From: Actinomycetaceae bacterium
GTDB taxonomy: Bacteria; Actinomycetota; Actinomycetes; Actinomycetales; Actinomycetaceae
NCBI GenBank assembly: GCA_030524055.1
Contig: JAUNHH010000006.1
Span: forward strand, 62,001-126,000
Reading direction: 5' to 3'
DNA: 64,000 nt
Part shown: piece by piece, positions 5,189-62,800 of the stretch
How the letters are laid out: every line of letters begins with the position of its first letter
How positions within the stretch are numbered: the first letter of the stretch is position 1
The notes under the pieces: model-generated
Seen by the model: only the letters and a program-made list of their open reading frames with translations
What the model was told of the DNA's origin: nothing
Database searches by the model: none
Made by a program: the position numbers and the translations under genes

Positions 5189-5308
5189 GTGAAACGCATG
5201 TGGATGGCGCCGCACGTGTCACGCTCTTTTTACGAGGGCGGGGCGAGAACTCACCCACCCTGAAAGTCGCCAGTTCCACCGCATGGCAACCTCGTAGACT
5301 TGAGCCCT

Positions 5309-5737
5309 ATGAGTCCTCGCCCTGTTGTGGCTGCAGCCATTGTTGATTCCCTGAGCGCCCCCACTCAGTTATTGTGCGCCGCTCGGGCCTATCCGCCTGA
5401 GCTTTATGGCCTTTTCGAGCTCCCCGGTGGGAAAGTTGAAGAGGGCGAAGAGCCTCTCCAGGCGCTTCACCGTGAAATCGACGAGGAACTATCCACCACG
5501 ATTAGCGCTGGCCCTCAGATTCTTGGCCCTCTCGATGGTTGGTGGCCGATTGCGAATGGGCGACGTTTAGGAGTTTGGTTGGCCACACTTACGCCAGATG
5601 CCCCGCCTATTCAGTGCGGCTTGGGCCATCTTGAGATGCGCTGGTGTCCCCTGACCGATCTGGATTCTTTGCCGTGGATACGACACGATTTCCCTATTGC
5701 TCAGGCGATTATTGACTATTGTGCGCGCCTCAAGTGA
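5309..5737 (+). CDS. Nudix hydrolase (MutT-like)
   Basis: The protein has 142 residues. The Nudix box occupies about residues 40-62 (GGKVEEGEEPLQALHREIDE followed by EL) and fits GX5EX7REUXEEXGU, with the paired Glu that bind Mg. The pattern of LCAARAYPPELYGLFELPGG before it and a C-terminal Trp-rich segment resembles actinobacterial MutT-type enzymes. Those enzymes hydrolyse oxidised or surplus nucleoside triphosphates such as 8-oxo-dGTP. The exact substrate cannot be read from sequence. I took the ATG at 5309. No ribosome site is visible, but TAGACT at 5294-5299 could be the -10 box of a leaderless transcript. Confidence 0.85.
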   Translation: MSPRPVVAAAIVDSLSAPTQLLCAARAYPPELYGLFELPGGKVEEGEEPLQALHREIDEELSTTISAGPQILGPLDGWWPIANGRRLGVWLATLTPDAPPIQCGLGHLEMRWCPLTDLDSLPWIRHDFPIAQAIIDYCARLK

Positions 5738-5862
5738 GGTCTGTGCCGGATCTGATGCGCGCCTACGTTACCCCTAGCGCCCTGTAAAAGGCTGCTGCCC
5801 CGCCCTCGTCCATATGCCACTTACTTTGGCGACACACTCACCTTTTCTGTCAGAATATCCCT

Positions 5863-6711
5863 ATGCCGAAAATTATCGGGGACACTCTCACGGACCATCG
5901 CGAACTCACTCGCCGCAAGCTTTTTGACGCTTTGGCTGATCTCATGGCTCTTCGGCCTTTTGACACCATCACTATGTCTGAGATCGCGAAAGTCGCGGGC
6001 GTGGGACGCACTGCCGTTTATAACCACTTTGCAGACAAAGAAGTACTGCTTCTGGCATTTATGGAGCAGGCTACACGTGAGTTCTCTGAACATGTCAATG
6101 CTGCTCTGGCTGGGCACGATGATCCTATCGACCAGCTCCGTATTTATTTGCGGGCCCATTTGGAAATGACAGATCGCTACCACCTGACTTCAGGAGTGAA
6201 TCTGCGGCACCATCTCTCCCAGCAGACCAGCGAACATTTACATGATCATGCGGGCACTGTGGGCGCACTACTTGGCACTATTTTGGTGCGCGCCATTGAG
6301 GCAGGGCGTATTCCTGCTCAGGATCCGCGCACATTGGTTGGCCTCATCCACGCGTCACTGGCTGGTCAGCGTCTGCCTGAACATCACGCACAACGCGAAG
6401 TGCGCATCGCCACCGCCACCGCTTTTGTCCTACGGGGCATTGGCGTTTCGGGTGATCTTGCGCCAATACCGATGCCGGGGCGTATTAACGAGGGCGGGGC
6501 CGGGCATATTTCTCACAGTGCTGATACTGGGCGCGGCGCCAGGCAGGACGGCCGCATCGCTGCAGGTGCAGGCGCCTATTCGACGACCGCTACAGGGACT
6601 AGCCAGCAGGAAAACGCCGAATTGGCAAGGGAAACTCGGACAGCTCCTCCCAGAGCTTCCCTCCCCCATTCTTCAGAAGACGCTTTTCTGCGCTGCCCAG
6701 TTCACCACTGA
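5863..6711 (+). CDS. TetR family transcriptional regulator
   Basis: The 282-residue protein has an N-terminal TetR helix-turn-helix: RRKLFDALADLMALRPFDTI, then MSEIAKVAGVGRTAVYNHFA and DKEVLL. It is followed by an all-helical ligand-binding region to about residue 200. The last 80 residues are low-complexity Gly/Ala/Arg/Ser sequence absent from the family. They begin where the dispersed 13-base word occurs (6488-6500, read as RINEGGAGH). The target is unknown. It stands alone between a Nudix gene and trxA, both on the same strand, with gaps of 125 and 307 bases. It may control itself or trxA. Confidence 0.8.
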   Translation: MPKIIGDTLTDHRELTRRKLFDALADLMALRPFDTITMSEIAKVAGVGRTAVYNHFADKEVLLLAFMEQATREFSEHVNAALAGHDDPIDQLRIYLRAHLEMTDRYHLTSGVNLRHHLSQQTSEHLHDHAGTVGALLGTILVRAIEAGRIPAQDPRTLVGLIHASLAGQRLPEHHAQREVRIATATAFVLRGIGVSGDLAPIPMPGRINEGGAGHISHSADTGRGARQDGRIAAGAGAYSTTATGTSQQENAELARETRTAPPRASLPHSSEDAFLRCPVHH

Positions 6712-7644: not shown

Positions 7645-8050
7645 CGCTGGAGCGTAAACCAGTGTGAGGACATGTTTTTCGCAGCCGATCTGCCTCTGGC
7701 CTGAGGTTGCTCTTCAGGACAAACCACCGCGAGGACGCGTTTTTAGCGGCACGATCTCATTGTGGACGCGGTTTATCAATCGGAGGCATTAGCCCACAAT
7801 TGGTGACCTGCACAAATAGGTGCAGACTTGAGGCCCAGGCGCCCATTCGCACCGGGCCAGACGGACAAACCGCCGCGAGGACGTGTTTTCAGGCCGCGAT
7901 TGTCATTGTGGTGGCGGGTTGTCAGTCGGGGCCTAGACACCAGAAAATTCCGACCTGCACAAATAGTGGCCCCGCCCTCGTAGAACAATACAAACCGCCA
8001 CCACGATGCATTTCCACGCGGCAAATGTCATCGTGGCGGCGGTTTGTCCC
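7645..8050. repeat. Repeat family C cluster (ACAAACCGCC units) between trxA and asd
   Basis: This spacer between converging genes has no gene but holds degenerate copies of a unit. The unit runs ACAAACCRCC, GCGAGGACG, a CATTGTGG stretch, TTGTCAATCGG and GACCTGCACAAATAG. Copies begin about 7649 (weak), 7714, 7864 and 7990. The same family reappears at 43371, 43497 and 43939. A minus-reading copy of the 13-base word lies at 7969-7981. The rest of 7382-8149 shows nothing else I can name. Confidence 0.7.
7990..8047. terminator. Long hairpin, candidate bidirectional terminator before asd end
   Basis: ACAAACCGCC plus ACCACGATG (7990-8008) pairs with 8029-8047 over 19 bp with one mismatch and a 20-base loop. 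It lies about 100 bases past the asd stop and faces trxA. There is no T-tract, so a terminator role is inference. It is one half-diverged repeat-C unit folded on itself. Confidence 0.5.
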
Positions 8051-10813: not shown

Positions 10814-12658
10814 TTAAGAATCAGAAGACACCTGCGGAAGACGAACGGTAAAGGTAGTGCCTGTTTCCCCTTCACCGTCCTCAGCGCTATGCGTATCCAT
10901 CTCAACGCGACCATTCAAAGCTTTAGCGATAGAGGACACGATGGCCAGGCCAAGACCTGACGAGCCTTTGCCATCACAGCGCGTCCGCGACACATCGCCG
11001 CGGACAAAACGGTCAAAAACGGTGGGGCGAAGATCAGCGGGAATACCGGGTCCGTTATCAGAAACATAGAGAGCAATAGTGTGGCGCGAGGCATCGTCAC
11101 TCATAGACGAGGGCGGGGTGGCAACTGTATCGGCAGCGGATTTAGTCGAAGCGGCGGCCATTTTGGCGGCCTGAGCCTTTGACGCAGCAGCAACCTTCCG
11201 CAATGCCCCGCCTTTAGGCGCGGATTCCTTCTCTATATCCGCATCCGCACCGTCTTGGACGCCCTGATTAGCACTATCTTTGGGCTCCCCTTCCAGACGC
11301 ACCCCGATTTTTACCTCAGTGCCCGAGGGCGTGTGGACACGCGCGTTATTCACCAAATTCGCTAATACCTGACGCAATGCAGGCTCATCCCCCAAAACCA
11401 CACACTTTTCCGCATCGATTCCATCAGGCACATCCAAAATCCACTTGTGGTCCGGACCCGCCGCATGGGCATCCATCACCGCATCAATCACCAGAGGAAT
11501 CACATCAACAGGTTCAAGGTCGAGTTCACGTCCAGCATCAAGGCGCGCAAGAAGAAGAAGGTCCTCAACCAGGCCCGACATTCTGGCCGATTCAGAAGAA
11601 ATACGCGCCAAAGCGGTAGGCGCATCAATAGAATCCCGCTGAAGCAGCTGCGTATAACCCTGAATAGAGGCCAAGGGAGTACGTAATTCGTGGGAGGCAT
11701 CAGCAACAAAACGACGTAATTTATTTTCTGACTCTGCGCGCGCAGTTAATGCCCCTTCGACATTATCAATCATGGCATTGAGCGCATGCCCCACATCGCC
11801 CACCTCTGTTCCAGGCTGGGCAGCTTCAGAGTCAATTCGCCCAAAGGGAGCAAGATTTTCACTGGTGAGATCACGGCGCCCAATATGGCGCGCAGTGGAG
11901 GCCACTGCGCCAAGTGGACGCATTTCCTGCACAACCCAGCGACGTCCAACAGCAGCAGCGACAGTAATAATGATGGCGCCGAAAATCAGCTCAACAAAAA
12001 GGAGGGTGGCAATAGTCCCATTCAGTTGAGACAGGGAATGTCCCGAGGCAATAAAAGAGCCATCTGGAGCGGTATCAGCAATCACTCGAAATTCGCCACG
12101 TTCACCAATGACAATAGTGCGAGGCTGGTCATCAGGCGGCAGCTCAAGAATGGGAGCTATTTCCTCTGGCTGTAATTGGACAGACTCGAATTGTTCAACA
12201 ACGCCAGCAGCCACAGCAGAATCATTGGCGTAAAGAAGAAGTTGACCTTCAGCGGCACCTGGGCCTTTAAGGGAAGGCGGGTCGCCTTTATCATCCCAAT
12301 CCTTTTCCGGCTCAGTCCCCTCAAAAATCTCGGTCTCCATACCGGATTCTTGGGCGTTATTCTGACCGTCAATAGGGAAGCCAAAAAGAGTGTCTCCCCC
12401 ATTGGGGTCACCCGATGATTGGGGAGGTTGACGCAAGAGAATACTGGCCGGTTCACTGCCTGATGCATACTTTTTCTCGAAGTGGTGCAGCGTTTCCCGG
12501 ACATTATTGTCGATTTCACCGCTCAACCAGGATCGCAAAACCACACCTGTTGCTGCGCCTAACGCGACAAGCGCTAAAGACACCAGGACGGCAATAAAAA
12601 TGCTAATCCTGGTGGCTAAAGATAAACGGGAGGTGACGCGAGGAGCAGGTGTAGTCAT
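10814..12658 (-). CDS. Sensor histidine kinase of a two-component system
   Basis: The 614-residue membrane kinase has a first membrane helix at about residues 17-42 (IFIAVLVSLALVALGAATGV), an acidic extracytoplasmic sensor region and a second helix near 215-235. A HAMP linker follows, then the H-box DASHELRTPLASIQG with phospho-accepting His323. The ATPase domain has N-box NLVNNARVHTP, G1 DNGPGIP and G2 GSSGLGLAIV. An Ala/Lys-rich insertion of about 70 residues lies between N-box and G1, where the family is compact, and contains a copy of the 13-base word (11107). It follows its response regulator by 9 bases. The signal is unknown. The layout resembles actinobacterial TrcS/MprB-type kinases. 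Confidence 0.88.
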   Translation of the reverse strand: MTTPAPRVTSRLSLATRISIFIAVLVSLALVALGAATGVVLRSWLSGEIDNNVRETLHHFEKKYASGSEPASILLRQPPQSSGDPNGGDTLFGFPIDGQNNAQESGMETEIFEGTEPEKDWDDKGDPPSLKGPGAAEGQLLLYANDSAVAAGVVEQFESVQLQPEEIAPILELPPDDQPRTIVIGERGEFRVIADTAPDGSFIASGHSLSQLNGTIATLLFVELIFGAIIITVAAAVGRRWVVQEMRPLGAVASTARHIGRRDLTSENLAPFGRIDSEAAQPGTEVGDVGHALNAMIDNVEGALTARAESENKLRRFVADASHELRTPLASIQGYTQLLQRDSIDAPTALARISSESARMSGLVEDLLLLARLDAGRELDLEPVDVIPLVIDAVMDAHAAGPDHKWILDVPDGIDAEKCVVLGDEPALRQVLANLVNNARVHTPSGTEVKIGVRLEGEPKDSANQGVQDGADADIEKESAPKGGALRKVAAASKAQAAKMAAASTKSAADTVATPPSSMSDDASRHTIALYVSDNGPGIPADLRPTVFDRFVRGDVSRTRCDGKGSSGLGLAIVSSIAKALNGRVEMDTHSAEDGEGETGTTFTVRLPQVSSDS

Positions 12659-12667: not shown

Positions 12668-13402
12668 TTATGCCCCAGCGGCTGGCCGAATAATATATCC
12701 AGCACCTCGGACAGTATGGATCATCGGCTCTTGATCAACCTCAATCTTTTTCCGCAGATAGGAAATATAGAGCTCCACGACATTGGCTTGGCCGCCAAAA
12801 TCATAGGACCAGACTCGGTCGAGAATCTGCGACTTTGACAGCACCACATTCGGGTTTTCCATCAGGTAACGCAAGACCTCAAATTCAGTGTTAGTGAGGG
12901 AAATGGGGACCCCCGCCCTCGTGACGTCATGGGAATCTTCGTCGAGGACTAAGTCACCCACAACGAGGACGTGGCGCACTGTCTGACTGGCCATTCCAGC
13001 TCGACGCAAAAGAGCGTCAATACGGGCAGTCACTTCATCTAAGTCAAAAGGTTTGGTGACATAGTCGTCAGCTCCCGCCCGCAAGCCGGTGACGCGATCC
13101 GCTACAGCATCGCGGGCGGTAAGGAAAAGAACCGGCAGGTGAGGCTGCTTTTTCCGGAGCCTTTCCAGAGTTTCCAAACCATCCAATCCTGGCATTTGGA
13201 TATCAAGGACCACCACATCAGGGTCGAAATCCGGCGCAATATCGAGCGCTTCCCAGCCATTGGCTGCCGTGCGCGTTTCCCAACCGCGATGACGCAGGGC
13301 AGCGCCAAGAAGCTCGGCAAGAACGGCTTCATCGTCCACAACGAGGATTCTCGCCGGGGACCCATCTGCACGGACATACGTGGATTCTGGTGCTGTGCTC
13401 AC
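12668..13402 (-). CDS. OmpR/PhoB-family response regulator
   Basis: The 244-residue DNA-binding regulator has a receiver domain with acidic pocket D23/D24 (LVVDDEAV), phosphorylated D67 (VVVLDIQMPG), T95 and K117 (YVTKPFD). The winged-helix domain runs SLTNTEFEVLRYLMENPNVV and ends in a TVRGAGYIIRP element. I chose the GTG at 13402 (VSTAPEST) because GGGAG lies upstream; longer forms add an unlikely Arg-rich leader. The cognate kinase starts 9 bases after the stop. The 13-base word at 12910-12922 is read in frame as TRAGV, in a loop of the DNA-binding domain. The target genes are unknown. Confidence 0.9.
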   Translation of the reverse strand: MSTAPESTYVRADGSPARILVVDDEAVLAELLGAALRHRGWETRTAANGWEALDIAPDFDPDVVVLDIQMPGLDGLETLERLRKKQPHLPVLFLTARDAVADRVTGLRAGADDYVTKPFDLDEVTARIDALLRRAGMASQTVRHVLVVGDLVLDEDSHDVTRAGVPISLTNTEFEVLRYLMENPNVVLSKSQILDRVWSYDFGGQANVVELYISYLRKKIEVDQEPMIHTVRGAGYIIRPAAGA

Positions 13403-13549
13403 AGAAAAGATTCTCCCACGACGCCGCCTTGCCCTGGTGGTGAAGGGGCTGTGGGCAAGCTGTGAAGCCGCTCGTGAAGCAGTGCCAATAGCAGAGTTGC
13501 CCCCGCAATAAACGAGGGCGGGGCACCAATGAGACAAAAGGCGGTGCTT

Positions 13550-15130: not shown

Positions 15131-15315
15131 AGGGCTATCGTAACCATCACGCCTTAGAGTGCTCTATCAGGGAAATGCCTAGATGTATTCTTCGGACATT
15201 AAGGGATCCCCCTTAGTCTCTTCTCCTCCACCCGGGTACCTTGCCGTTTTTCCGCGAGAATCCGGGGTGGGCGTTCCCCCTTTCTCGGGTGGTGCCCCGC
15301 CCTCGTCACACATGA

Positions 15316-16902: not shown

Positions 16903-17001
16903 ACGAGGGCGGGGCGCCAGGCGATAGCACGCCGCCCGGCTTTGAGGGCGAACTCTCGGGTGCGAATGCTCACCTTAGATAAAGAAATGCCCCGCCCTCG
17001 T
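16903..17001. repeat. Inverted pair of the 13-base word between recR and the MFS genes
   Basis: A perfect plus-reading copy (16903-16915) and a perfect minus-reading copy (16989-17001) are 73 bases apart. Transcribed together they form a 13-bp G/C-rich stem. The pair occupies most of the 119-base spacer. Confidence 0.7.
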
Positions 17002-21325: not shown

Positions 21326-21671
21326 CCCTGAACTCTACGTTGCCGCACCCCCATTTGGCGCGTTACTCCATTTTCGTGGCGGAATTGACGAGGGCGGGGC
21401 GCGCTGAACATAGGGAGAGGTTTGTGACATATGTAGGCGTTGGGAAGATATGTCAGTGTTGGGAAGCGCCCCTGCGCCTACATATGTTCCCAACGCTGAC
21501 ATATCCTGCGGCAGGCGCACAGCATCGAGCCGCACACAGGAAAATTGTGGCGAGGGCGGAACTGTTCACTCCCGCCAGCGCTGTCAGCAAATGTCTGCGC
21601 CTCCCTTTAGGCTTAGTGGCGGCACGACTGTGGAGTTCTTCCACGGCAGCACCTACCCAATGGAGGAAAAT
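21326..21671. other. Spacer between divergent dnaX and RNB genes
   Basis: It holds the 13-base word at 21388, a variant at 21550, and repeat-B copy 1 (21424-21505). It must contain both promoters, but I cannot place the boxes. An open frame extends leftwards from the RNB gene across the repeat, but it has no family-like residues or ribosome site. Confidence 0.5.
21424..21505. repeat. Repeat family B, copy 1
   Basis: Four related units are arranged head-to-head. GACATATGTAGGCGTTGGGAA-like and GATATGTCAGTGTTGGGAA face TTCCCAACGCTGACATATC and CCTACATATGT. The inner arms pair over 19 bp with one mismatch. A second copy is at 59189-59269. Confidence 0.75.
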
Positions 21672-44790: not shown

Positions 44791-45221
44791 AGCGTCATTC
44801 TTCCCCATAACGAGGGCGGGGCGCGGAATGGCGAGCGCCTGCAACGAGGGGCATGGCTGCCCTACGCCTTGACACCAAACATGCAGAGGGCGACAAAAAG
44901 CCGCGTTTTCGGCAGAAAATGTCGCCCTTTGACCGTCCGGTGTCAATCCACCGAGCAGCGCTCACTGTAAACAGCATCCCCTTCAGTACAGACCCGCAGC
45001 TATAGATGTACTTTCATACAGACTCTAGCTAACTAGTGACATAAGGACATACTCGAGAAGTATCGAATGAACTCAGATGGCCACTTCCACCCCTACACAC
45101 CGCGACACACCCTTCAGCAAGACCCCCATCCCACCCTCCGGAAGGCACCGTCCATATCTGCAAGAGCGCTCTCACTTAATTAAGAGGGATAAACCCATGA
45201 AAGTTCCGCTAGGGTGTCTGC
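44791..45221. other. Divergent spacer mobA/moaA with repeat A copy 2
   Basis: It holds the 13-base word (44810) and repeat-A copy 2 (44870-44945). An A/T-richer stretch (44990-45210) should carry the moaA promoter. TAGGGT (45210-45215) lies 6 bases before the moaA ATG and could be the -10 box of a leaderless transcript. GTACAGAC and GTACTTTCATACAGAC (near 44995 and 45007) form a loose direct repeat of unknown meaning. Confidence 0.4.
44870..44945. repeat. Hairpin repeat family A, copy 2
   Basis: AGGGCGACA (44887) and TGTCGCCCT (44920) are perfect complements with the same 33-base offset as the other copies. The inner stem is GCCG/CGGC, with A-runs beside it. GACACC and GGTGTC lie at the outer edges (44871, 44939). 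Confidence 0.85.
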
Positions 45222-46451: not shown

Positions 46452-46665
46452 CACCACCGTCCCAAACCCGCATTAATCCGCCGTATTCTGCCCATTGCAC
46501 GCAGCCGCGACAGGCCCCAGCCCCACCTCCCACCAACCCCCGCCCCGCCCTCGTCAGGCCACCACGCACACCCCGCACACCCCATTTCTCCCCCCATTTC
46601 CACCTGCCCCCTGATTTTTTCCTGATACGATCCCTCCAAAACATTGGCCCAGACAGGAGCACCCC

Positions 46666-48012: not shown

Positions 48013-48090
48013 ACGAGGGCGGAGTGCGGCTGGCCTCAACATAAACCCCGGCCGCACTCCCACCCCCATTCATCCTGGCCCCGCCCTCGT
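48013..48090 (+). terminator. Nested hairpins between narK and narG
   Basis: GGAGTGCGGC (48021-48030) pairs perfectly with GCCGCACTCC (48051-48060). Outside it, ACGAGGGC (48013-48020, from a variant 13-base word) can pair with GCCCTCGT (48083-48090, end of an exact minus-reading word). It could end narK transcripts or partly uncouple narK from narGHJI. Confidence 0.6.
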
Positions 48091-48135: not shown

Positions 48136-51100
48136 ATGACCACCGAGAACTCTTCGGCCACAGCTCAACCGGCCTCAGCTGCCTCCCCGATTTTCCGCAT
48201 GGGATCGTGGTTGCGCCGTGGCCGCGCCAGCGCCGACTCGCACCAGATTTTTCTTGAGGGCGGCCGCGACGCCGATATTTTCTACCGCCAGCGCTACCAA
48301 TATGACAAAGTAGTGCGCTCCACCCACGGGGTGAATTGCACGGGTTCCTGCTCGTGGAAGATCTACGTCAAGGACGGCATTATTACCTGGGAGTCCCAGG
48401 CCACGGACTACCCCACAACCGGCCCGGACATGCCTGAATACGAACCGCGCGGATGCCCCCGTGGTGCGGCCTTCTCCTGGTACGAATACTCCCCCACCCG
48501 CATTAAATACCCCTATATTCGCGCGGTCCTGCTCGACATGTTCCGCGAAGCGAAATCGCGCCTCGTGGACCCGGTATTGGCGTGGGGCGATATTGTCTCC
48601 GATCCTGAGCGGTCACAGGCCTATAAATCGCAACGAGGACGGGGCGGCTTGGTCCGCACCACCTGGGAACAGGCCATGGAAATCCTTGCCGCGGCCTATA
48701 CCTACACGTTAAAGACCTGGGGTCCGGACCGCTGTGCTGGCTTTACCGTTATTCCTGCCATGTCAATGGTGTCCTACGGGGCTGGCGCACGTTTCCACCA
48801 GCTCATTGGCGCCCCCATGCTCTCCTTCTATGACTGGTATGCGGATCTCCCTCCCGCATCCCCGCAGGTTTTCGGCGACCAAACTGACGTGTCCGAAGCG
48901 GGCGACTGGTACAACAGCCAGTACCTGGTGATGTGGGGAACGAATCTGCCCATTACCCGCACCCCCGACGCCCACTTTATGACCGAGGCTCGCTACCACG
49001 GCCAAAAAGTTGTTGTCGTCTCGCCAGACTTCGCCGAAAACACAAAATTCTGCGATGAGTGGTTGCGCGTCCACCCGGGCACCGACGCCGCCCTCGCTGA
49101 AGGCATGGCCCACGTCATCTTCACCGAGTTCTACGTGCGACGCAGCGAGCCCATGTTCCGCGATTACGTCCTGAAATACTCCGATTGCCCCTTCATTGTC
49201 CGTCTTGACGAGGTCGGGGCTGAATCCCTCAATGGAGTTGTCGGAGCTGAAGACGTGGAACAGGCATGGCGTCCCGGCAAGTACCTGACGGCCTCAATGA
49301 TGCCGGAAGGCACCACTGAGCGCACGGAAAATAACCACGCCCGTCCCCTGGTCATGGAAGCTAATGGCCAAGTGAAAGACCCGGGCGGCACCCTGGCTGA
49401 TCACTACGGTGATGAGGGGATGGGCAAGTGGAATCTTGCCATGGACGGCGTTGACCCCATTTTGTCAATGATGGAATCTGACGACTGGGAGCCCGTTGAG
49501 GTACTGCTGAACCGCTTTGATTTGCCCTCCTCTCAGGGGACAACGTCAGTGGGCGCGGGTGTGATGCGCCGCGGCGTCCCGGCCCGCCGTATTAATGGCT
49601 ACTTGGTGACCACGGTCTATGACCTCATGTTGGCCCAGCACGGTGTGGCCCGCGAGGGGCTGCCAGGACTGTGGCCAAGCGGCTATGACGACCCGACCTA
49701 CCCGGCCACCCCCGCCTGGCAGGAAACCATTACCGGTATTCCAGCTGCGGCCTGCGAAAAGATTGGCCGCGAATTTGCACTCAATGCTATTGAGTCGGGT
49801 GGCCGGTCGATGATTTTGATGGGCGCGGGCACTAACCACTATTTCCACTCCGATCTCATGTATCGCGGTTTCCTCACCCTGACCACGATTTGCGCCTGTG
49901 AAGGCAAGAATGGTGGCGGCTGGGCCCACTACGTCGGCCAAGAAAAGGTCCGTCCTATTACTGGCTGGCAGCAATACACCCTGGCTTTGGACTGGCAACG
50001 TCCGCCGCGCCAAATGATTTCTACCGGCTGGTATTACATGACGACCAGCCAGTGGCGTTATGACGGGGCGCGCGCTGACGCTATGGCTAATCCTTTGGGG
50101 GCTGGGACCCTGGAAGGCAAGATGGTGGCCGATACCCTGGTGGAATCAGCCCAGCGCGGGTGGATGCCCTCATTCCCCACCTTTAACCGTTCCGCTTTGG
50201 AACTGGGCCGCCAGGCTAAAGAAGCAGGAATGTCCGCGCCAGATTATGTGGCTCAGGAGTTGACCGAAGGGCGCCTCAAGTTTGCGGTGACTGATCCCGA
50301 TCATCCAGATAACCACCCGCGTATTTTGGCGAATTGGCGGACGAATTTGCTGGGGTCTTCTGCTAAAGGCACCGAGTTCTTTATGCGCCACATGCTGGGC
50401 ACCGTTAACCACGTCAATGCAGAAGAATTGCCTGAAGGGCACCGCCCCTCGTCAATTACATGGCGCGATCCTATTAACGGCAAACTCGACCTCATGTGGG
50501 TAGCGGATTTCCGTAATACCTCCACCACTTTGCATTCCGATATTGTCCTGCCTGCCGCCACCTGGTACGAAAAGCATGACCTGTCGTCGACAGATATGCA
50601 CCCCTTTATCCACTCCTTCAATGTGGCCGTGAATCCGCCGTGGGAAGCACGCAGTGACTTTGAGGTCTTTAGGACGCTGGCGCATTTGGTGTCTGAATTT
50701 GCTGTGGAGCATTTAGGGACACAAACAGATGTGTTTGCGGCTCCTCTTTTCCATGACAGCCCTGATGAATACACCTTGCATAATGGTGTTGTCCCGCCGC
50801 GCGATGGCTGGCATCCGGGTGTGGATATGCCAAAGATTATTCCCATTGAACGTGATTACACGATGATTGGGACGAAATTTGAGCGTCTCGGGCCGCTGTC
50901 CGAAAAGCTGGGTCTGCCTCAAAAAGGCTTTATGTTTGACCCGACTGTGGAAGTGGAATATTTAGGTCGCCGCAATGGCCGTGCCCCCATGGATGGTAAG
51001 CCCGGCGAGGGCCGTCCCCTTTTGGATACGGCGATTAAAGCTGCCGATATGGTGCTGGCATTTTCTGGCACAACGAATGGGCGCCTGGCCTATACCGGAT

Positions 51101-51906: not shown

Positions 51907-53450
51907 TGAAGGTGATGGCGCAAATCGCGATGGTAATGAACCTCGATAAATGCATCGGGTGTCATACCTGTTCGGTCACCTGTAAGCAGGCATGGACAAA
52001 CCGTGATGGCACGGAATACATCTGGTTTAACAATGTGGAAACCCGACCGGGTGTGGGTTATCCGCGCGGCTGGTCTGACCAGGGCAAGTGGCGCGGAGGG
52101 TGGCGTCGGACCCGCTCAGGTCGCCTTGTTTTAGCTCATGGCGGGCGTCTGGCTACCTTGGCAAAACTCTTCCACAACCCAGTTATGCCTACCCAGGATG
52201 ACTATTACGAGCCCTGGACTTACGAATACGACAAGCTCTTACAAACCCCGGCTGGGCAGAACTCCATGCCCTCAGCCCGCCCTATTTCGCAGATTACTGG
52301 CGATCCTATTGACACGATTTCCTGGGGCCCGAACTGGGATGATGACCTGGGTGGCTCAATGGAAACGCTGGACACTGACCCGGTTCTGCACCAGATGAAT
52401 CTGCAGGTGTCGAAGACTATTGAAGACGCCTATATGTTTTATCTGCCCCGTATTTGTGAGCACTGCCTGAACCCGGCGTGCGTATCAGCCTGCCCTTCTG
52501 GCGCCATGTATAAGCGCACGGAGGACGGCATTGTCCTGGTGGATCAGGATGCCTGCCGCGGGTGGCGTATGTGCGTATCGGCCTGCCCCTATAAGAAGGT
52601 CTATTTCAACCACAATACGGGCAAGGCAGAAAAGTGCACCCTGTGTTATCCGCGCGTTGAGGCTGGCCAGCCCACGATTTGTTCGGAAACCTGCGTGGGG
52701 CGCCTGCGCTATATGGGTGTTCTCCTCTATGACGCTGACCGCGTTGCTGAAGCGGCATCGGTGGAGGATGAGAAAGACCTCTACCGCGCACAGCGCGATA
52801 TTCTGCTGGATCCTTTTGATGCCGATGTCATTGAGGCAGCCCGCGCTAATGGCGTTCCCCATTCGTGGATTATTGCCGCCCAGAACTCCCCCATTTGGAA
52901 ACTCATTACCACCTATCAGGTGGCATTGCCTCTGCATCCAGAGTTCCGCACACTGCCTATGGTCTGGTACGTTCCGCCACTGTCACCTGTGGTGGACCAG
53001 GTAACCGCCACTGGAAATGACGGAGAAGACCATAAGGTTCTTCTTTCGGCTATTTCCCAAATGCGTATTCCTATGGAATATCTGGCCGGCCTTTTTACTG
53101 CCGGCGATACGCGCCCTGTTGAACTGGCCTTGCGCCGCCTTGCGGCAATGCGTTCCTATATGCGCGATATTTTCAATGGGAATGCGGGCAATGAAGAAAT
53201 TGCCGCCTCTGTCGGGCTCGATGGAAATACCATCGAGGAAATGTATCGGCTTATGGCTATTGCTAAATACGATGACCGTTACGTTATTCCCACAGCCTCC
53301 CCAGAAATGCCCCGCGGCATTAAAGAACTCGAAGGCTGCCCGGTGTCCTATGACGTTGAGGCTTTCCATGGCATGGGCGGCGCCCCGTCCTCGTCAATGA
53401 CAGCCCAACCTGAGGGACGACGCATGCTCCCCTTGGAGGTGCGCCGGTGA
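51906..53450 (+). CDS. narH: Respiratory nitrate reductase beta subunit
   Basis: The 514-residue iron-sulfur subunit carries electrons from the NarI hemes to NarG. Four cluster groups are visible: DKCIGCHTCSVTCKQAW (Cys16, 19, 22, 26), ICEHCLNPACVSACPSG, CRGWRMCVSACPYKKVYF, and CTLCYPRVEAGQPTICSETC. The Trp in CRGWRMC marks the [3Fe-4S] cluster, as in E. coli NarH. It starts inside the narG stop and ends inside the narJ start, so the operon is tightly coupled. The C-terminal tail contains variant word 53382, read as GAPSSS. Confidence 0.96.
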   Translation: MKVMAQIAMVMNLDKCIGCHTCSVTCKQAWTNRDGTEYIWFNNVETRPGVGYPRGWSDQGKWRGGWRRTRSGRLVLAHGGRLATLAKLFHNPVMPTQDDYYEPWTYEYDKLLQTPAGQNSMPSARPISQITGDPIDTISWGPNWDDDLGGSMETLDTDPVLHQMNLQVSKTIEDAYMFYLPRICEHCLNPACVSACPSGAMYKRTEDGIVLVDQDACRGWRMCVSACPYKKVYFNHNTGKAEKCTLCYPRVEAGQPTICSETCVGRLRYMGVLLYDADRVAEAASVEDEKDLYRAQRDILLDPFDADVIEAARANGVPHSWIIAAQNSPIWKLITTYQVALPLHPEFRTLPMVWYVPPLSPVVDQVTATGNDGEDHKVLLSAISQMRIPMEYLAGLFTAGDTRPVELALRRLAAMRSYMRDIFNGNAGNEEIAASVGLDGNTIEEMYRLMAIAKYDDRYVIPTASPEMPRGIKELEGCPVSYDVEAFHGMGGAPSSSMTAQPEGRRMLPLEVRR

Positions 53451-54132: not shown

Positions 54133-54915
54133 ATGTTTCCTCATGCGGCGTTACTGACGATGGATAGTCACGGGGCCATTTCCCCTTCGCGGGAACTCAC
54201 CTTCGTTGACACCCTCCTATGGGTAGTCCTGCCCTATGCGGCCGTCCTCATGATGATTATTGGCCTTGTCTGGCGTTTTAAAACCGACCAATATGGGTGG
54301 ACTTCACGTTCCTCCGAATGGAATGAATCCGCTATTTTGCGGTGGTCCTCTCCCCTATTCCACTTCGGCATTTTAGGAGTGGCTGTGGGGCACGTCGTCG
54401 GGTTGCTGGTGCCTAAATCGGTCACCGAATTTATGGGCATTAGCCAGCATGTATACCACTTAGGGGCAGTGATTGGCGGCAGTATTGCTGGGCTGGCCAC
54501 GATTATTGGCCTATGCGGGTTGATTTACCGGCGCCTGGTGGTCAAATCCGTGCGTTTAGCGACGACCCGGATGGATATTGTCACCTATATTCTGCTGGCA
54601 ATTCCGATTTTCTTGGGTGCCGCGGCCACCGTGATTCACCAGATTTTTGGTGGGGAACATGGCTATGACTATCGGGATACGATTTCCGTGTGGTTCCGGT
54701 CGATTTTCCTGCTCCAGCCGCGCCCAGAAATCATGATTGATGTGCCCGCGGCATTCCAGCTCCACATTATTGCTGGCCTGCTCCTGTTCTGTGTGTGGCC
54801 TTTCACCCGTCTTGTCCATGCGGTCTCCGCTCCGGTGGGTTATTTGACCCGGCCTCAGGTGGTGTATCGTTCGCGCGATCAGAAGAAACCGGTGCCCCGC
54901 CCTCGTGGATGGTGA
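54133..54915 (+). CDS. narI: Respiratory nitrate reductase gamma subunit
   Basis: The 260-residue membrane cytochrome b takes electrons from menaquinol and passes them to NarH. Five helices are visible. His pairs for the two hemes lie in SPLFHFGILGVAVGHVVGLL and in QLHIIAGLLLFCVWPFTRLV plus HAVSAP. I chose ATG 54133, with GAGGAAAGG eight bases upstream; a GTG at 54124 overlapping narJ is the alternative. The C-terminal residues PRPRGW come from a minus-reading 13-base word (54894), which also overlaps the next start. It completes narGHJI. Confidence 0.93.
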   Translation: MFPHAALLTMDSHGAISPSRELTFVDTLLWVVLPYAAVLMMIIGLVWRFKTDQYGWTSRSSEWNESAILRWSSPLFHFGILGVAVGHVVGLLVPKSVTEFMGISQHVYHLGAVIGGSIAGLATIIGLCGLIYRRLVVKSVRLATTRMDIVTYILLAIPIFLGAAATVIHQIFGGEHGYDYRDTISVWFRSIFLLQPRPEIMIDVPAAFQLHIIAGLLLFCVWPFTRLVHAVSAPVGYLTRPQVVYRSRDQKKPVPRPRGW

Positions 54916-56383: not shown

Positions 56384-57258
56384 TGAATAGTGACGAGGGC
56401 GGGGCGCGTAGCGGAAAAAGCGGCGCGCGCATTGGCAGTCGCGGAGTGCGTATTCCTTTACTTCACGCTCCAGAAGAAATGACCGAGGATCACCCTTCTG
56501 CCGAGCGCTATCGGCGGAATTGGTTGGTGTCGGGAATTGGATTAGAAGGCCAATCGCGTTTGCGGGCTGCGCGGGTTTTAGTTGTGGGCGCGGGCGGCTT
56601 AGGTTCGCCGGTTTTGCTCTATTTAACGGCGGCAGGAATTGGCACTATTGGGGTGTGCGATTCTGACCATGTCGATGTCTCTAATCTGGCCCGCCAACTT
56701 CTCCATAGCGAAAAGGATGTAGATTGCCCAAAACCGGATTCTGCCGAACGCCATTTAGGGGCGCTCAATTCGGAAGTCCGTATTGAGAAATACCCTCATG
56801 TGACGCGGGAGTTTCTTGAGGCTCATGGGCGTCAGTGGGATCTCATTATCGACTGCACAGATACTTTTGCCGCGAAATATCTAGTGGCGGATTGGTGTGC
56901 AGATTCCGGAGTTCCTTTCGTCTGGGGAACTGTTGTGGCAATGGGATATCAGGTCAGTGTTTTCTGGTCGAATCCGCCCACAGGTGTGCCCGCCACACAT
57001 TTACGAATGCTGCATCCCACTATTCCTCCTGATGGGTCTACTCCACGCTCCACGGAAGTGGGGGTTCTTGGACCTGTTGTTGGCCAAACGGGGACATTAA
57101 TGGCTACGGAGGCTGTGAAGATTATTGCGGGATTTGGTGAGCCGCTCATTGGCCGCGTCGCTATTGGGGATGCATTGCGCGGACGAGTCGATATCCTCAC
57201 TTTTGCTTCTTTTGACGAGGGCGGGGCCGAATCTTTCAGTGCCACGCCCCGCGCATAA
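56383..57258 (+). CDS. moeB: MoaD-adenylating E1-like enzyme
   Basis: The 291-residue ThiF-fold enzyme activates the MoaD C-terminus with ATP. The nucleotide site is VLVVGAGGLGSPVLLYLTAA; then DSDHVDVSNLARQLLHSEKD, and IIDCTDTFAAKYLVADWC with the catalytic Asp. No rhodanese domain follows, so sulfur must come from another protein. The zinc tetracysteine of E. coli MoeB is not visible. Both ends carry the 13-base word: MNSDEGGARS at the start (56393) and FDEGGAES near the end (57215). The first 30 residues are low-complexity, so a start at the later Met of MTEDHPSAERY is possible. Confidence 0.9.
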   Translation: MNSDEGGARSGKSGARIGSRGVRIPLLHAPEEMTEDHPSAERYRRNWLVSGIGLEGQSRLRAARVLVVGAGGLGSPVLLYLTAAGIGTIGVCDSDHVDVSNLARQLLHSEKDVDCPKPDSAERHLGALNSEVRIEKYPHVTREFLEAHGRQWDLIIDCTDTFAAKYLVADWCADSGVPFVWGTVVAMGYQVSVFWSNPPTGVPATHLRMLHPTIPPDGSTPRSTEVGVLGPVVGQTGTLMATEAVKIIAGFGEPLIGRVAIGDALRGRVDILTFASFDEGGAESFSATPRA

Positions 57259-57276: not shown

Positions 57277-58509
57277 ATGACGGCACTATCTATTGAGCAG
57301 CATCGGGAGAAGATTCGCGCTATTCTCAACTCCCCTGCGCCGCACATTTTTCCTTTATCAGCGGCCCGCGGTCTATATACAGCTGAGTCTATTCCTGCTC
57401 TTTTGCCAGTGCCGCCTTTTACGAATTCAGCAATGGATGGTTTTGCCATTCGCCATAGCGATATTTTGGCGCTGCCCGCCTCCTTGCCAGTAGGTGGAGA
57501 TATTCCTGCTGGCAGCGCCTCCTCCCGCGCACTTGGCGCTGGCGAAGCACTGCGGATTATGACAGGCGCACCGCTGCCAGTCGGCGCCGATACTGTGGTC
57601 AAAGTTGAAGATACTGACCATAGTGGCCGCGGAGCGGCCCCCGCCCTCGTCACTATTTACGCCATCCCCGAAAAGGGTGCGAATATTCGCCACGAGGGCG
57701 AAGCTTTGCCTGTAGGCGCTGAGGTGCTTCCCGCTAGGCAGCGCCTCACTCCTGCTGCGCTGTCGGCATTAGTGGCCACTGGCCATTCGGAGGTGGCGGC
57801 GTATCGGCGTCCGCGCGTGGCTGTGTTGAGCACTGGCGAGGAACTCGTGTCCGGGGCGGAACTTTCACCGGGGCAGATTCCTGATTCCAATTCAATTCTT
57901 CTGGCTGGTCTTCTTGAGCAAGCCGGGGCTGAGGTTGCTGCCGTGCAGCGCAGCTCTGATAGCGTCGAAGCATTCCGGCAGGCAGTGGAAACTCTTGCCG
58001 ATGCGGACTGCGATCTTGTCCTGACCAGTGGCGGCATTTCAGCGGGTGCTTTTGAGGTGGTTCGCCAGGCCTTGGCGCCGTCAGTCGAGTTCTACCATGT
58101 GGCTCAGCAGCCGGGCGGGCCGCAAGGGGTGGGTACCGTGCGCGCAGGCGGCCGCGAGATTCCCGCGATCTGTTTGCCAGGAAATCCTGTCTCTGTTTTT
58201 GTCTCTTTCCACCTTTATGTGGCACCTGCTGTACAGGTGATCGCCGGGGCGCCCGAGTATCTTTTTCCGCCGACTCAGTCAGCGCGATCGTTATCGCAGT
58301 GGAATAGCCCGAAAGGGAAAACTCAATTCGTCCCCATGGGGATTTCTGCTGATTCTTCTCACCCCCTCACTGTGGAATGCGTTCACCCTTTAGGTGCCCG
58401 CTCTCATCTTGTCACCTCTTTACCTTTTGCGCAGGCTTTAGCGGTTATTCCGCCTGAGGTCACGCATATTTCTGCCGGGGATTCGGTAGATATTATTACG
58501 CTTCCCTAA
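57277..58509 (+). CDS. moeA: Molybdopterin molybdotransferase
   Basis: The 410-residue enzyme inserts molybdate into adenylylated molybdopterin produced by Mog. Recognised blocks are PPFTNSAMDGFAIRHSDI, GGDIPAGSAS, RIMTGAPLPVGADTVVKVED, and the molybdopterin-binding domain VAVLSTGEELVSGAELSPGQ with TSGGISAGAFEVV. The C-terminal PGNPVSVFVSFHLYVAP also matches. A 13-base-word core (57638) sits in a variable loop, read APALVT. The gene starts 18 bases after moeB, with GGCGGAAAG upstream. Its length is normal. Confidence 0.94.
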   Translation: MTALSIEQHREKIRAILNSPAPHIFPLSAARGLYTAESIPALLPVPPFTNSAMDGFAIRHSDILALPASLPVGGDIPAGSASSRALGAGEALRIMTGAPLPVGADTVVKVEDTDHSGRGAAPALVTIYAIPEKGANIRHEGEALPVGAEVLPARQRLTPAALSALVATGHSEVAAYRRPRVAVLSTGEELVSGAELSPGQIPDSNSILLAGLLEQAGAEVAAVQRSSDSVEAFRQAVETLADADCDLVLTSGGISAGAFEVVRQALAPSVEFYHVAQQPGGPQGVGTVRAGGREIPAICLPGNPVSVFVSFHLYVAPAVQVIAGAPEYLFPPTQSARSLSQWNSPKGKTQFVPMGISADSSHPLTVECVHPLGARSHLVTSLPFAQALAVIPPEVTHISAGDSVDIITLP

Positions 58510-59290: not shown

Positions 59291-59830
59291 TTAGCGCGGA
59301 TGGTCTCCACCTGCGAGTTGGTCATTAATATGAGCCAGCAGCGGGCCAATCACACTCACTGCGTCGCGCACTCCTCCAGGGGATCCCGGGGCATTCACCA
59401 CCAGCATGGCCTCTGGCCCGCGCCCGACCAGGCCCACTAATCCGCGTGAGAGCAGCGCATAGGGGGATTTTTCTTGTCCCAATCGGCGAATTGCCTCCGC
59501 GATCCCATCCAAGCGCGCACTCAATAGCGGCTCGGTGGATTCAGGGGTGACATCGCGGGGAGAAATCCCTGTACCGCCGGTGGTCAGTAGCAGTCGCACG
59601 CCCTCATTGCGCGCGCGCTCAATCGCCGTGCGAATATCTTCCACCTGGTCGGGAATCACGACAATCTGATCGACCGTTACCCCGTAGGCCCCCAGTTCGC
59701 CAGCGGCCAGTGGCCCGGAGGTGTCAGTGGCTTCCCCGCGCGAACAGCGGTCAGAAATAGTGACAACTCGCCCGAAGATTGGCGCGCGGCTGCGACGATC
59801 TGCGGGCGAGTGTGTGGGCGTTGATCCCAT
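59291..59830 (-). CDS. mog: Molybdopterin adenylyltransferase (Mog family)
   Basis: The 179-residue enzyme adenylylates molybdopterin before MoeA inserts molybdenum. Motifs are RVVTISDRCSRGEATDTSG, VVIPDQ and LLTTGGTGISPRDVTPESTE. The two Asp equivalent to MogA Asp49 and Asp82 are both kept, unlike in the paralogue at 26734. The C-terminal VVNAPGSPGGVRDAVSVI is typical. I chose ATG 59830, two bases after the stop of the upstream minus-strand gene. A GTG at 59878, overlapping that gene, is possible. It converges on moaC and completes the cofactor set. Confidence 0.88.
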   Translation of the reverse strand: MGSTPTHSPADRRSRAPIFGRVVTISDRCSRGEATDTSGPLAAGELGAYGVTVDQIVVIPDQVEDIRTAIERARNEGVRLLLTTGGTGISPRDVTPESTEPLLSARLDGIAEAIRRLGQEKSPYALLSRGLVGLVGRGPEAMLVVNAPGSPGGVRDAVSVIGPLLAHINDQLAGGDHPR

Positions 59831-59832
59831 TG

Positions 59833-62800
59833 TCAGTGTTTTGGCGTCGGCTTTTGGCGTCCGCGGCGGGTCAGCCACTTCGGCAACTTCTTAAAGGCCT
59901 CTTCCGTGTCATCCTCGGGTTCTTCACCGGGGATTTCCGCGGGTAGCTCAGGAGCTGCCTCAGGGGGGTTGAGTCCTTCCGGAGAAATCCCGGCATCCGC
60001 TGGGAGTCCAACGCCAGGAAGCACGCCGGTATCTGCAAGGCCCGTTTCTGCTGCGGGGATGCCTGCGCCTTCAATGGAACCTGGTACCTCGGTGGGCACG
60101 CTCAGCGCTTCTTCTGGGGGTGGAATAGATCCCGCCAGTTTCGCGGCCTTAGCGAAGACTCCCATCATGGGACCAGACCTCGCCGATTGCGGTGGCCGCT
60201 GAGGCGATTCCGATCGTAAAGGCGGCATGGGTCGTCCCGGCGTATCGGGTGAAGCCGCGTCAGGGTACGAGGTCGGAGCCCCACTTCGCACAGAGTCAGG
60301 CGCGGGAGCCTGCCCGAAGGGGCCATTTCCTCGTGGGTCAACCGGGGTTACGGGATTCCGTGTCTCGCCGGGTTGCCCAGGCCCTGCTGCGCGCGCAGAG
60401 TCGTGCGGAATAGGCGCCGCTGAGCCAGGAGGTACGTGACCAGCAGGCACTACTGGCGCCCCTTGAGGTGGAGGAAGCGGAGCACCGTGGACTGGCGTAT
60501 GTCCCGCAGGTGATGGTGCTTGCGCCGATGGCACACCCTCAACTGGAGGTACTGGTACGGGCCCACTCCCTAATGGCACACCACCTGGCGGATTTGGCGC
60601 AGACTCAGGAGCCACTGGCGGCGGAGGTGGTGTCACCGCGACCGGTGGTGTGGCTGGCGGTGGCGGCGAGGGCACCACCGGTGTATTCACTGGTGGCATA
60701 CCCTGCACTGGAGAGTGCTGTTCAGGAACGGCAAATCCAGCAGAGGTTTCTACTGGCGTGCCCTGGGGCGGAGTAGATACGCCAACGGGTGGGAACAGGG
60801 GCCGGCGACCCCGGATGACGCGGGTTTCTGTGAGGTCTTCCTGGGGATTGTCAGGCGCATGAGAGACATTGGTGGCAACGCCTGGCGCCTCACCGTCAAG
60901 TGACGGGCCTTCCGCAGTAGGACGTGCGTCTCCACTCGGGCCGCTGTCAAAACCCCCAGCCCGCCCGATTCCTGTTGAGCCAAGAGCATCAATAGCTTCC
61001 GCAGGATTTGGAGTGTGTGGCGTCCCCTTCTGCTCAGAACCCACAGGCATATCCGCACCGTCACCAGAGGCAAGCGCCCCTGTAGTAGTGACAGATGGAA
61101 TTGGGCCGGTCGTTCCCGCTGGTTTGACCGCATCAAAAATACCTGTCCGGGGTCCTCGCGACGCAATTGGGGTGCGGATAATTCCGGCAGGAGTATCACT
61201 CGCAGCAGTGTCGGCGCTCTGCCTATCCACCACATGTTCAGGCAGATCAGGAGGCGTCATCTCAGCGGGCCCGGAGGTCTCAGCAGCCTCAGCACCTCCG
61301 GTGGATGTTTCGGCCCCCGCCCCGCCCTCGTCCTCACCAAGAGAAAGGAAGGTGGTCCGCTTTAAGCCAGCCTGTGCGAGTGCCGCGCGCAAAACGGAAC
61401 GTCGGGAGGGAATTGGGGTGGGTGCTGAGTCAGCTTCCGCTTGTGCTTCTTCCCCGGCGCCGCCGTGGTTGGTATCAACGGGCGCATCAAAGTCAGGATT
61501 GGCCTCATCGTCGCCCACGCCCCCCTGAAGCTTCAGGAAATGCAGCTGGGTATCGCTGAGTTCACGTGTTCCCTCCTCGCCTGAGGCCAGTGCCGCCTCA
61601 TGCGCAGTAATCGCATCAACAACGGGCCGCAGATCAATGGTGTCTGACGTGTCGGGCTCGTCACCCTCACTATCATGCGTGGCCTGCGCATTTACGCGCC
61701 GAGAGACATATCCGCCCAACCCTGTCACCGGAGTATCCAAGGCGCCCGTGCCGAAAGTATCAGGCTGGTGGTCCGTGGCGTGGTCGGCCGGTTCAGGGGA
61801 TTCGGTGCGCTGCTCGTCAGGCAGAATCGGCGTGACATTGTTGTCTTCAGGGCGGGTTTCAGCGCCCTGGGTGGTCACTTCTTCCTCAGTCGCTTCTTCC
61901 TCATGTGACGAGGGCGGGGGCGAATCTACGGCACGTAGGCGCCCATAAGCTCCACGATTGTCCACTGTGGAGCGCACTCCGTGAATATCTGCCCGTTTGG
62001 GGAAGTCCTCCGGGTTCAACCCAGTGGTGGTGAGGTGAGCGCGATGAACACGGCGGGTTGGAGCCGTCGTCGGACCGTGAGAATCGTGGTTCTCTGCTGT
62101 TTCCTGTGGTTCTTCCTCTGACTCGGAGGCGTCCACGTGAAGCGCAGAGTCCTCCTGGTACAGCTCGGCCTCATGGGCGGCTTCACCCTCTGAGATCTGC
62201 TCCATGTCAGCGCTATCACCCGGTTCGATAGACACTTCCGGGGGAATCGACACCGCGGATTCGCCCCGTGTCTCGCCTTCGACAGAAGCTGGTGAGTCAT
62301 AGTGATTCGCTGTTTCGCGGCCCACTGCCACGTTCGACGGATCTTCTCTTTCTGAGTGCGCCTCAGAAAGAGTGGTCTCTTCGACGTCCCAGTGTTCTTC
62401 CGCTGAGGGTCCGCCAGGAAGGGCCTCCTCAAAGGCTTCGTCCTCAGGATGTTCCTCGATATTTGGCTCAACAGGGGCCTGGTCAGAGTCTTCTGCGAGC
62501 TGTTGGGGCTCCTCGCCACTATCAGCACCTATGGTGTCGTCACCATCTGCGCCTGGCGCGTCGAAGTCAGCAGCGAAGTGGTGTTCATCAGCAGTAGCAG
62601 CGAATTCCCGCGCGGCAGAAATAAAGGATTCTGCATCTTTATCTTCGTCTACGTCGATGGCATTTCCTTCAAGGACAGGCGCCTCTGCGGGAATGTCATC
62701 AATAATCCGCGTGGAATTGACCTCTTCAGCAATGATTTCGATACCCGATTTATCGGGGTTATCGTCACTATTCACAGCAGCGGGGTAAGGGATCTTGGGC

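Follow-up and report, generated by a model that had tools for sequence, protein, structure and literature searches.

A 13-base word repeated throughout an actinobacterial genome: a probable uptake-sequence-like signal with dialect-like variants in its genus

Why should one 13-base word, ACGAGGGCGGGGC, recur again and again, on both strands, in a stretch of 64,000 nucleotides from an Actinomycetaceae bacterium (the window; contig JAUNHH010000006.1, positions 62,001 to 126,000 of assembly GCA_030524055.1)? In our analysis the word is probably an uptake-sequence-like signal, and apparently one that is new for Actinomycetota. The window (C17:62001-126000) belongs to a genome, G000, of 3,034,260 bases in 47 contigs. 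It contains 25 exact copies, 13 on the plus and 12 on the minus strand (0.01 expected from dinucleotide shuffles), and 46 copies with at most one mismatch (0.28 in shuffles), 21 of which carry the mismatch. The 12-base core ACGAGGGCGGGG is found 32 times, as 25 exact words, four copies with T and three with G at position 13. A preliminary description had counted by hand 25 exact copies with the same strand split, 32 copies of the core and about 20 near copies, and had put the chance expectation well under one; the recount returned the same picture on each point. Nor is the word confined to the window. The whole genome holds 727 exact copies (363 forward and 364 reverse) where base composition predicts 0.22, and the reversed word, used as a control, has no copy in the whole 3.03 Mb, thus the signal is genome-wide. 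The window is richer than the genome mean (25 vs. 15.3 exact copies, Poisson p = 0.014). The preliminary description gave a density of about one site per 1.8 kb; the genome mean is one exact copy per ~4.2 kb.

The tolerance of the word for change was analyzed in 378.5 kb of G000 (contig C3, C17:1-60000, and the window). Next to 95 exact copies there are 89 copies with one change, and 72 of these 89 are changed at position 7, 11, or 13. At position 7, G (95) is far ahead of A (14), C (12), and T (2), in keeping with the earlier remark that G is much preferred there, followed by C or A. Changes at position 13 are to T (19), G (9), or A (2) and at position 11 to A (8), T (4), or C (2), while any other single change is represented by 0-4 copies. 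When the first A of the word is taken as coordinate 0, the upstream flank shows A-T-T-G at -4 to -1 and T at -9, and a T-rich patch lies downstream at +18 to +20, i.e., 6-8 bases beyond the 13-mer; isolated weak flank positions over the threshold are -38, -14, +27, and +33. Since 56 unpaired intergenic sites have the T patch (38, 45, and 45% T), it is not merely a terminator tail. It is limited to the first two positions in 23 antisense genic sites (39 and 43%, then 26% T) and is absent in 42 sense genic sites (21, 24, and 19% T); the patch is weaker where codon constraint acts.

The sites are not placed at random. With genes called by a simple codon-usage gene finder and position 7 left free, 67 of 123 sites are intergenic, 5 are at gene edges, and 51 are genic, whereas 15% of random positions are intergenic (p = 4e-24). 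Two called genes flank 70 of the intergenic or edge sites, which are distributed over co-directional (36), convergent (27), and divergent (7) spacers, against expected shares of 55.2, 24.3, and 20.5%; convergent spacers are over-represented (p = 0.008) and divergent spacers under-represented (p = 0.026). All 19 close pairs (less than 120 bases apart, among 179 sites) are inverted, and 12 of them are intergenic with loops of 12-18 bases, forming 13-base stems. Spacer enrichment and inverted pairs, both claimed in the preliminary description, were thus borne out. The genic share is 41-47% across counts, with both strands used (53 sense vs. 31 antisense, p = 0.02). In three stretches the sites are more evenly spaced than in class-matched random placement that keeps the intergenic/genic mix (coefficient of variation 0.73, 0.62, and 0.62 vs. 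~0.96; p = 0.003, 0.012, and 0.002). Genic copies with C or T at position 13 number 82; 53 had no spanning homologue in the sampled relatives, and 29 could be compared. At 22 of these 29 the alignment is gap-free at the word in at least half of the homologues, which makes the genic copies look substituted and not inserted. When spacers were aligned to relatives, the aligned stretches (~65-78% identical) were nearly all genic.

Comparison with related genomes, named in the preliminary description as a check on the signal, revealed the same core with different endings. The genus set comprises 35 genomes, G000 included, and the comparison set 178 genomes from other genera of the family. G013 was placed in the window's genus; its segment G013:C18:224001-232000 is identical over 8000 bases to NZ_LS991317.1 (Actinomyces culturomici, Actinomycetaceae). 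This match sets the family of the host as Actinomycetaceae, and an assignment to Bifidobacterium, suggested by gene content, was rejected. Exact ACGAGGGCGGGGC reaches top counts of 162, 104, 80, 71, and 69 in the 34 congeners, and 25 genomes have 0-8 copies. The word ACGAGGNCGNGGC is present in at least 100 copies in 21 of the 35 genus genomes vs. 1 of the 178 other family genomes (hand count; Fisher p = 9e-19). It is at least five times as frequent as its reversed control in 32 of the 35 (up to 773 copies in G013 and 576 in G011), the exceptions being G001, G003, and G032, and its forward and reverse counts are near equal in most genomes. Separately, G170, from another genus (g37) of the same family, has 142 copies of ACGAGGNCGNGGC vs. 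2 of the control.

When 10-mers were ranked in samples of 100 kb or more, with a fourth-order Markov model as reference, an ACGAGG-core word took first place in G000, G004, G005, G007, G015, and G030. G003 and G011 have such a word in second place, behind one that overlaps the same element. The best such word is 6th to 8th in G016, G018, G024, and G031 and 49th in G001; no ACGAGG-core word is in the ranking of G032, and none is among the five words listed for each of four outgroup samples, of which two represent another genus of the family and two represent other families. Intergenic GACGAGG, as observed over expected under a second-order model, gave 54/7.5 in G000, 35/4.6 in G011, 22/4.5 in G005, 18/4.1 in G015, 17/3.2 in G004, 17/4.4 in G031, 15/3.0 in G003, 13/5.3 in G007, 12/2.2 in G018, 7/1.7 in G016, 7/2.7 in G030, 6/2.1 in G032, 5/1.2 in G024, and 4/2.9 in G001. 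Of these 14 genus genomes, which include G000 and were sampled to 100 kb or more, 13 reach a ratio of 2.4 or higher. In the same 14 genomes the reversed word ranges from 0/1.5 to 5/2.7, with 7/7.2 in G000, and is at most 1.9-fold enriched; the outgroup samples gave 6/3.4, 15/7.6, 4/3.3, and 4/4.7 for GACGAGG (at most about two-fold). Some smaller samples show an elevated count of the reversed word as well (G014 6/2.1, G013 3/0.9).

The tails following the core vary between groups of genomes. Four tails are the best supported: GCGGGGC in G000; CCG[G/T]GGC in the clade of G011, G012, G022, G023, and G031, together with G025 and G028; G[C/T]GAC in G003 and, by whole-genome count, in G014, G017, and G029 (157, 241, 197, and 152 copies, respectively, controls 2-6); and ACGA[G/C] in G005 (547 vs. 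6). G003, which falls below the five-fold level for ACGAGGNCGNGGC, thus has its own tail (GACGAGGGYGAC, 157 vs. 2). Before the core, 32 sites of G003 again show A-T-T-G (69, 53, 56, and 69%), and 70 sites of the G011 group show T-C-G (44, 49, and 79%); neither was imposed by the search pattern. A tree was built from four genes of 21 genomes, with some genomes missing for three of these genes. It recovers the G011 group as a fully supported clade and unites G003, G014, and G033, again with full support; support at several further nodes is weak (41-58). The congeners share an ACGAGG core with differing tails, which is a dialect-like pattern.

The preliminary description also pointed to com and pil genes. 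G000 has a comEA gene (L131:7586-8479; SLBB and helix-hairpin-helix domains) directly followed by comEC (L131:8467-10065) and then by a DNA polymerase III delta gene. Both proteins score under the NCBI full-length cut-offs (ComEA 69 vs. 152 bits, ComEC/Rec2 71 vs. 190), and the ComEC N-terminal domain model is passed (59.5 vs. 36.5). This ComEC is short (532 residues), with a Pfam Competence domain and no match to the metallo-beta-lactamase domain. There are two Tad-type clusters. One, on C44, has matches to TadE and Tad and encodes two T2SSF proteins and a TadA-like ATPase (under the TadA-family cut-off, 267 vs. 373); the other, on C19, encodes an ATPase that passes this cut-off (419), a single T2SSF protein, and a DUF4244 protein. 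The search thus yielded a comEA-comEC pair and two Tad-type clusters but no type IV pilin match. Among the genus genomes, the 6 without a tadBC pair (two neighboring T2SSF matches) have 1-64 copies of ACGAGGNCGNGGC and the 29 with it 10-1033 (median 175; Mann-Whitney p = 0.001). We regard this association as weak and do not use it as proof: the words were chosen after seeing the data, G016, G018, G024, and G026 share a word and are maybe one clade, G021 is 70% complete, and counts are low in G030, G003, and G001 despite the pair.

The whole set of features (counts, strictness, spacers, pairs, spacing, gap-free genic copies, AT flanks, and dialects) favors reading ACGAGGGCGGGGC as an uptake-sequence-like signal, and each rival explanation accounts for only part of it. 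The likeness to uptake sequences drawn in the preliminary description holds and reaches beyond what was described there, as it covers spacers, inverted pairs, even spacing, apparent substitution origin, and tail variants; an uptake function, as well as competence, receptor binding, the drive mechanism, and a barrier effect, is what we infer from it. More tentatively, it could well be that the genus has its own uptake code, in which a Gram-positive surface receptor, a Tad/Flp-pilus or another one, reads the ACGAGG dialects of the species and channels transformation within them; self-tagged DNA uptake would then have been invented a third time, independently and outside Proteobacteria. A pilus (from one of the two Tad/Flp-type clusters) or another surface protein would bind double-stranded DNA bearing ATTG-ACGAGG-tail, ComEA and ComEC would then carry the bound DNA inward, and homologous recombination would swap resident alleles for the incoming DNA. 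Fragments with a good word would be taken up more often, so that copies would spread by molecular drive, with uptake biased and recombination following. With gene tolerance as the limit, they would gather in spacers and to a more than average extent between convergent genes; inverted pairs there could serve as terminators as well. Receptor divergence between species would lead to dialects with a common core.

The closest parallels are two Gram-negative systems, described here from excerpts of the cited papers. The DNA uptake sequences (DUS) of Neisseriaceae are words of 10-12 bases with very many copies, inverted pairs at terminators, and permissive positions, and they fall into dialects that have a common core and follow phylogeny (PMC3630211). 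ACGAGGGCGGGGC is likewise a copy-rich word with terminator-type inverted pairs, permissive positions, and dialects sharing a core. It differs in copy number (727 here vs. ~900-6000 there) and in sequence, which is unrelated, and it is found in an actinobacterium with about half of the copies intergenic and uptake predicted. The DUS receptor is a ComP-type T4a minor pilin, whereas the profile search returned no N_methyl match here. The CTG core given in the excerpts for GCCGTCTGAA-type DUS occurs on neither strand of ACGAGGGCGGGGC (PMC3630211); therefore the word is not a member of the Neisseriaceae DUS and is similar in behavior only. The uptake signal sequences (USS) of Pasteurellaceae combine a strict core with flanking A+T-rich elements in subclade-specific versions (PMC1626085; PMC7811141), and arise by substitution, not insertion, with 24% of alignments gapped (PMC1626085). 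Strict core, AT-rich flanks, lineage-specific versions, and an apparent substitution origin are shared with ACGAGGGCGGGGC. The core here is G+C-rich and differs from the excerpted USS cores AAGTGCGGT or ACAAGCGGT (PMC1626085), the flanks are ATTG upstream and one weaker T-rich patch downstream, and the phylum and cell envelope are different, with uptake as a prediction only. Among actinobacteria, Micrococcus luteus has comEA, comEC, and Flp/Tad pili and is naturally competent (PMC6370729); G000 carries the same kinds of genes (comEA, comEC, and Tad-type), known here from genes alone, and the excerpted M. luteus text mentions no self-tag (PMC6370729).

What else might such a word be? One alternative, which we consider unlikely, is a site for a chromosome-organizing or nucleoid protein: evenly spread sites would fold or anchor the chromosome, and protein and site would drift together to give dialects. 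Even spacing, near-equal strands, spacer preference, and a shared core with variable tails would all fit. The consensus is, however, longer and stricter than would be expected of a general structural site, and for the tail to differ between species, hundreds of sites would have to shift in concert, an outcome that follows directly from uptake-biased recombination; the intergenic inverted pairs and the ATTG and T-rich flanks also recall DUS and USS.

A recombination signal like Chi (crossover hotspot instigator) or a replication-linked sorting signal like KOPS (FtsK-orienting polar sequences) would also be a short, over-represented, dispersed word. Chi and KOPS are strand-polar, and the preliminary description argued against them from the even strand use in the window. 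The genome total says nothing on polarity because the contigs are in arbitrary orientation. When related to local GC skew on the 254-kb contig C3, 45 sites are on the G-rich and 44 on the C-rich strand, and samples from congeners split 18/19 (G011), 4/6 (G015), 6/8 (G007), 8/10 (G013), 4/3 (G028), and 4/2 (G025). Runs of one strand on a G013 contig were considered as a sign of replication polarity and rejected as artefactual (contig totals 190/211). Strong replication polarity was not seen, so the argument holds to that extent; a weak bias may exist, and C3 overall has a borderline excess of 54 plus over 35 minus (p = 0.056). Inverted pairs and the convergent-spacer excess do not fit a signal of this type, and we think it improbable.

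Equally doubtful is a transcription terminator stem or other RNA-level element. The excess in convergent spacers and the 12 stem-forming pairs would be natural for terminators, but most sites are unpaired, with no partner within 130 bases for 56 of 84 intergenic and 65 of 73 genic sites, and the sizable genic share lies on either strand. A scan for inverted pairs in a wider contig collection, from which near relatives were possibly left out, gave 36 stretches with one pair each, mostly from actinobacteria (A. culturomici and Schaalia vaccimaxillae are represented once each); these look like chance or terminator matches. A mobile miniature repeat of the repetitive extragenic palindrome or miniature inverted-repeat transposable element type would account for high copy number, spacer preference, inverted pairs, and the gaps seen at 7 of the 29 comparable coding sites, and is nevertheless very hard to sustain with the other 22 gap-free, tolerance that is position-specific, and only isolated weak flank positions (-38, +27, and +33) outside about -14 to +24. 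A restriction or methylation target would be a fixed short word with one tolerant position, yet such targets are usually avoided in genomes and not enriched, and the ATTG and T-rich flanks would be left unexplained, so that this origin is most improbable.

Several observations weigh against the uptake-sequence reading. Within G000, exact copies barely exceed one-change copies; to the gaps just mentioned at comparable genic sites is added the low identity (29-36%) of several comparisons; and the C3 strand total is borderline. The two largest word-free gaps of C3 are a surface-polysaccharide locus (the largest, L035-L036, G000:C3:98101-110978, with galactofuranosyltransferase-like and SGNH acyltransferase genes) and a run of ordinary core genes; contigs C7-C9, at ~1.5 kb, are too short to inform on word depletion. 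Outside the genus, ACGAGGNCGNGGC likewise reaches five or more times the reversed control in about 32 of the 178 genomes from the rest of the family (hand count), mostly with fewer than 80 copies, which points to a weaker signal or a composition effect beyond the genus and means that core enrichment is partly non-specific; two of the four outgroup samples have GACGAGG at 1.8-2.0 times expectation in spacers; and GACGAGGGYGAC (up to 96 vs. 10) and ACGAGGACGAS (up to 298 vs. 100, in G052) occur outside the genus as well. Inside it, G001 and G032 show little or no signal despite comEC in both and the tad pair in G001. Intergenic copies are only 7 of 39 in G004, 8 of 51 in G005, and 7 of 48 in G007, and these mostly genic words may owe much to codon use. 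Two candidate dialects were rejected: TTCCGAGGCCG (60-73 copies in G016, G018, G024, and G026 and at most 14 in the other genomes searched) is genic in 24 of 25 sampled copies and TTGMCGAGGC of G030 in 23 of 25, with two frame positions predominating; as both may reflect codon bias, they are not counted. As for the machinery, ComEC is near-universal and thus not diagnostic of competence, being present in 55 of the 58 relatives and 10 of the 14 control genomes searched, E. coli among the controls; a profile search (E <= 0.1) gave no N_methyl (type IV pilin) match in G000 and 23 other congeners. No report of uptake or transformation for this genus was found in the searches made of the open-licence literature.

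The sites of the window are listed in Table 1. The 11.7 kb between 30817 and 42539 have no exact ACGAGGGCGGGGC; this interval consists mainly of a 3072-codon open frame (32674-41892, plus strand) that holds variants only.

Table 1. Exact and one-mismatch copies of ACGAGGGCGGGGC in the window (variants named by base and position; ORF, open reading frame)
Feature	Position	Strand	Remark
Exact ACGAGGGCGGGGC	5232..5244	+	exact match
Exact ACGAGGGCGGGGC	5797..5809	-	exact match
Exact ACGAGGGCGGGGC	6488..6500	+	exact match
Exact ACGAGGGCGGGGC	7969..7981	-	exact match
Variant C7	10802..10814	-	one mismatch
Variant T13	11107..11119	+	one mismatch
Variant G13	12910..12922	-	one mismatch
Exact ACGAGGGCGGGGC	13512..13524	+	exact match
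Exact ACGAGGGCGGGGC	15294..15306	-	9 bases past stop codon of ORF 15316-16890(-)
Exact ACGAGGGCGGGGC	16903..16915	+	inverted partner at 16989
Exact ACGAGGGCGGGGC	16989..17001	-	inverted partner of 16903
Variant C7	18992..19004	-	within dnaX ORF
Exact ACGAGGGCGGGGC	20034..20046	-	within dnaX ORF 17612-21325(-)
Exact ACGAGGGCGGGGC	21388..21400	+	exact match
Exact ACGAGGGCGGGGC	23317..23329	+	exact match
Variant C7	23772..23784	-	one mismatch
Variant A7	24929..24941	+	one mismatch
Exact ACGAGGGCGGGGC	26559..26571	+	exact match
Variant A10	27821..27833	+	one mismatch
Exact ACGAGGGCGGGGC	28018..28030	+	inverted partner at 28143
Exact ACGAGGGCGGGGC	28143..28155	-	inverted partner of 28018
Exact ACGAGGGCGGGGC	28791..28803	+	exact match
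Variant A7	30517..30529	-	one mismatch
Exact ACGAGGGCGGGGC	30804..30816	+	exact match
Variant T13	33046..33058	-	one mismatch
Variant T13	35468..35480	+	one mismatch
Variant C10	36581..36593	-	one mismatch
Variant C7	37903..37915	-	one mismatch
Variant A10	42040..42052	+	one mismatch
Exact ACGAGGGCGGGGC	42540..42552	-	exact match
Variant A7	43243..43255	-	arm of inverted pair with 43271, 15-base loop
Variant T13	43271..43283	+	second arm of pair with 43243; T-rich stretch after
Exact ACGAGGGCGGGGC	44116..44128	-	exact match
Exact ACGAGGGCGGGGC	44810..44822	+	exact match
Exact ACGAGGGCGGGGC	46542..46554	-	exact match
Exact ACGAGGGCGGGGC	48078..48090	-	exact match
Variant A7	48633..48645	+	one mismatch
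Variant T7	49208..49220	+	one mismatch
Variant A7	53382..53394	-	one mismatch
Exact ACGAGGGCGGGGC	54894..54906	-	exact match
Exact ACGAGGGCGGGGC	56393..56405	+	exact match
Exact ACGAGGGCGGGGC	57215..57227	+	exact match
Variant G13	57638..57650	-	one mismatch
Variant C7	59029..59041	+	one mismatch
Exact ACGAGGGCGGGGC	61319..61331	-	exact match
Variant G13	61908..61920	+	one mismatch

Other repeated words were encountered in the genomes sampled. The spacers of G036, from another family (L212 and L214-L216), contain a repeat of a different kind, GGTGGCGGGATTGCATGATCAC, which occurs singly and in short arrays; it is strongly over-represented in a 100-kb sample and looks like an array-forming interspersed element, unlike ACGAGGGCGGGGC. 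In G014 (L109, L110, and L128) frequent intergenic words center around GAGCGGACTTCGA, with ~30 counts in ~8 kb of spacer. G005 (L093, L094, L121, and L147-L151) has the extra repeated words GTGACCTTTAC, TCTTCGTGGT, and AAGTCTATCAG (the last assembled from overlapping 7-mers) beside its ACGAGGACGA word, and G004 (L116 and L142-L146) has TTTGGGCGTCCCT and CGCGAGGGACGCC, assembled from overlapping 10-mers and possibly a hairpin family.

Self-tagged uptake is known only from Neisseriaceae and Pasteurellaceae according to the excerpted text of a 2025 paper (PMC12616744), and we found no uptake sequence from Actinobacteria, Actinomyces, Schaalia, or Bifidobacterium in our searches of the open-licence literature. 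If the uptake-sequence reading of ACGAGGGCGGGGC is true, the actinobacteria would provide a third case, and self-tagged DNA uptake would have evolved repeatedly, needing neither a Gram-negative outer membrane nor a ComP-type pilin. The reading would further predict natural competence in this genus, and it would offer a genetic tool, with the tag added to DNA, as well as a new set of dialects for finding the receptor by co-variation.

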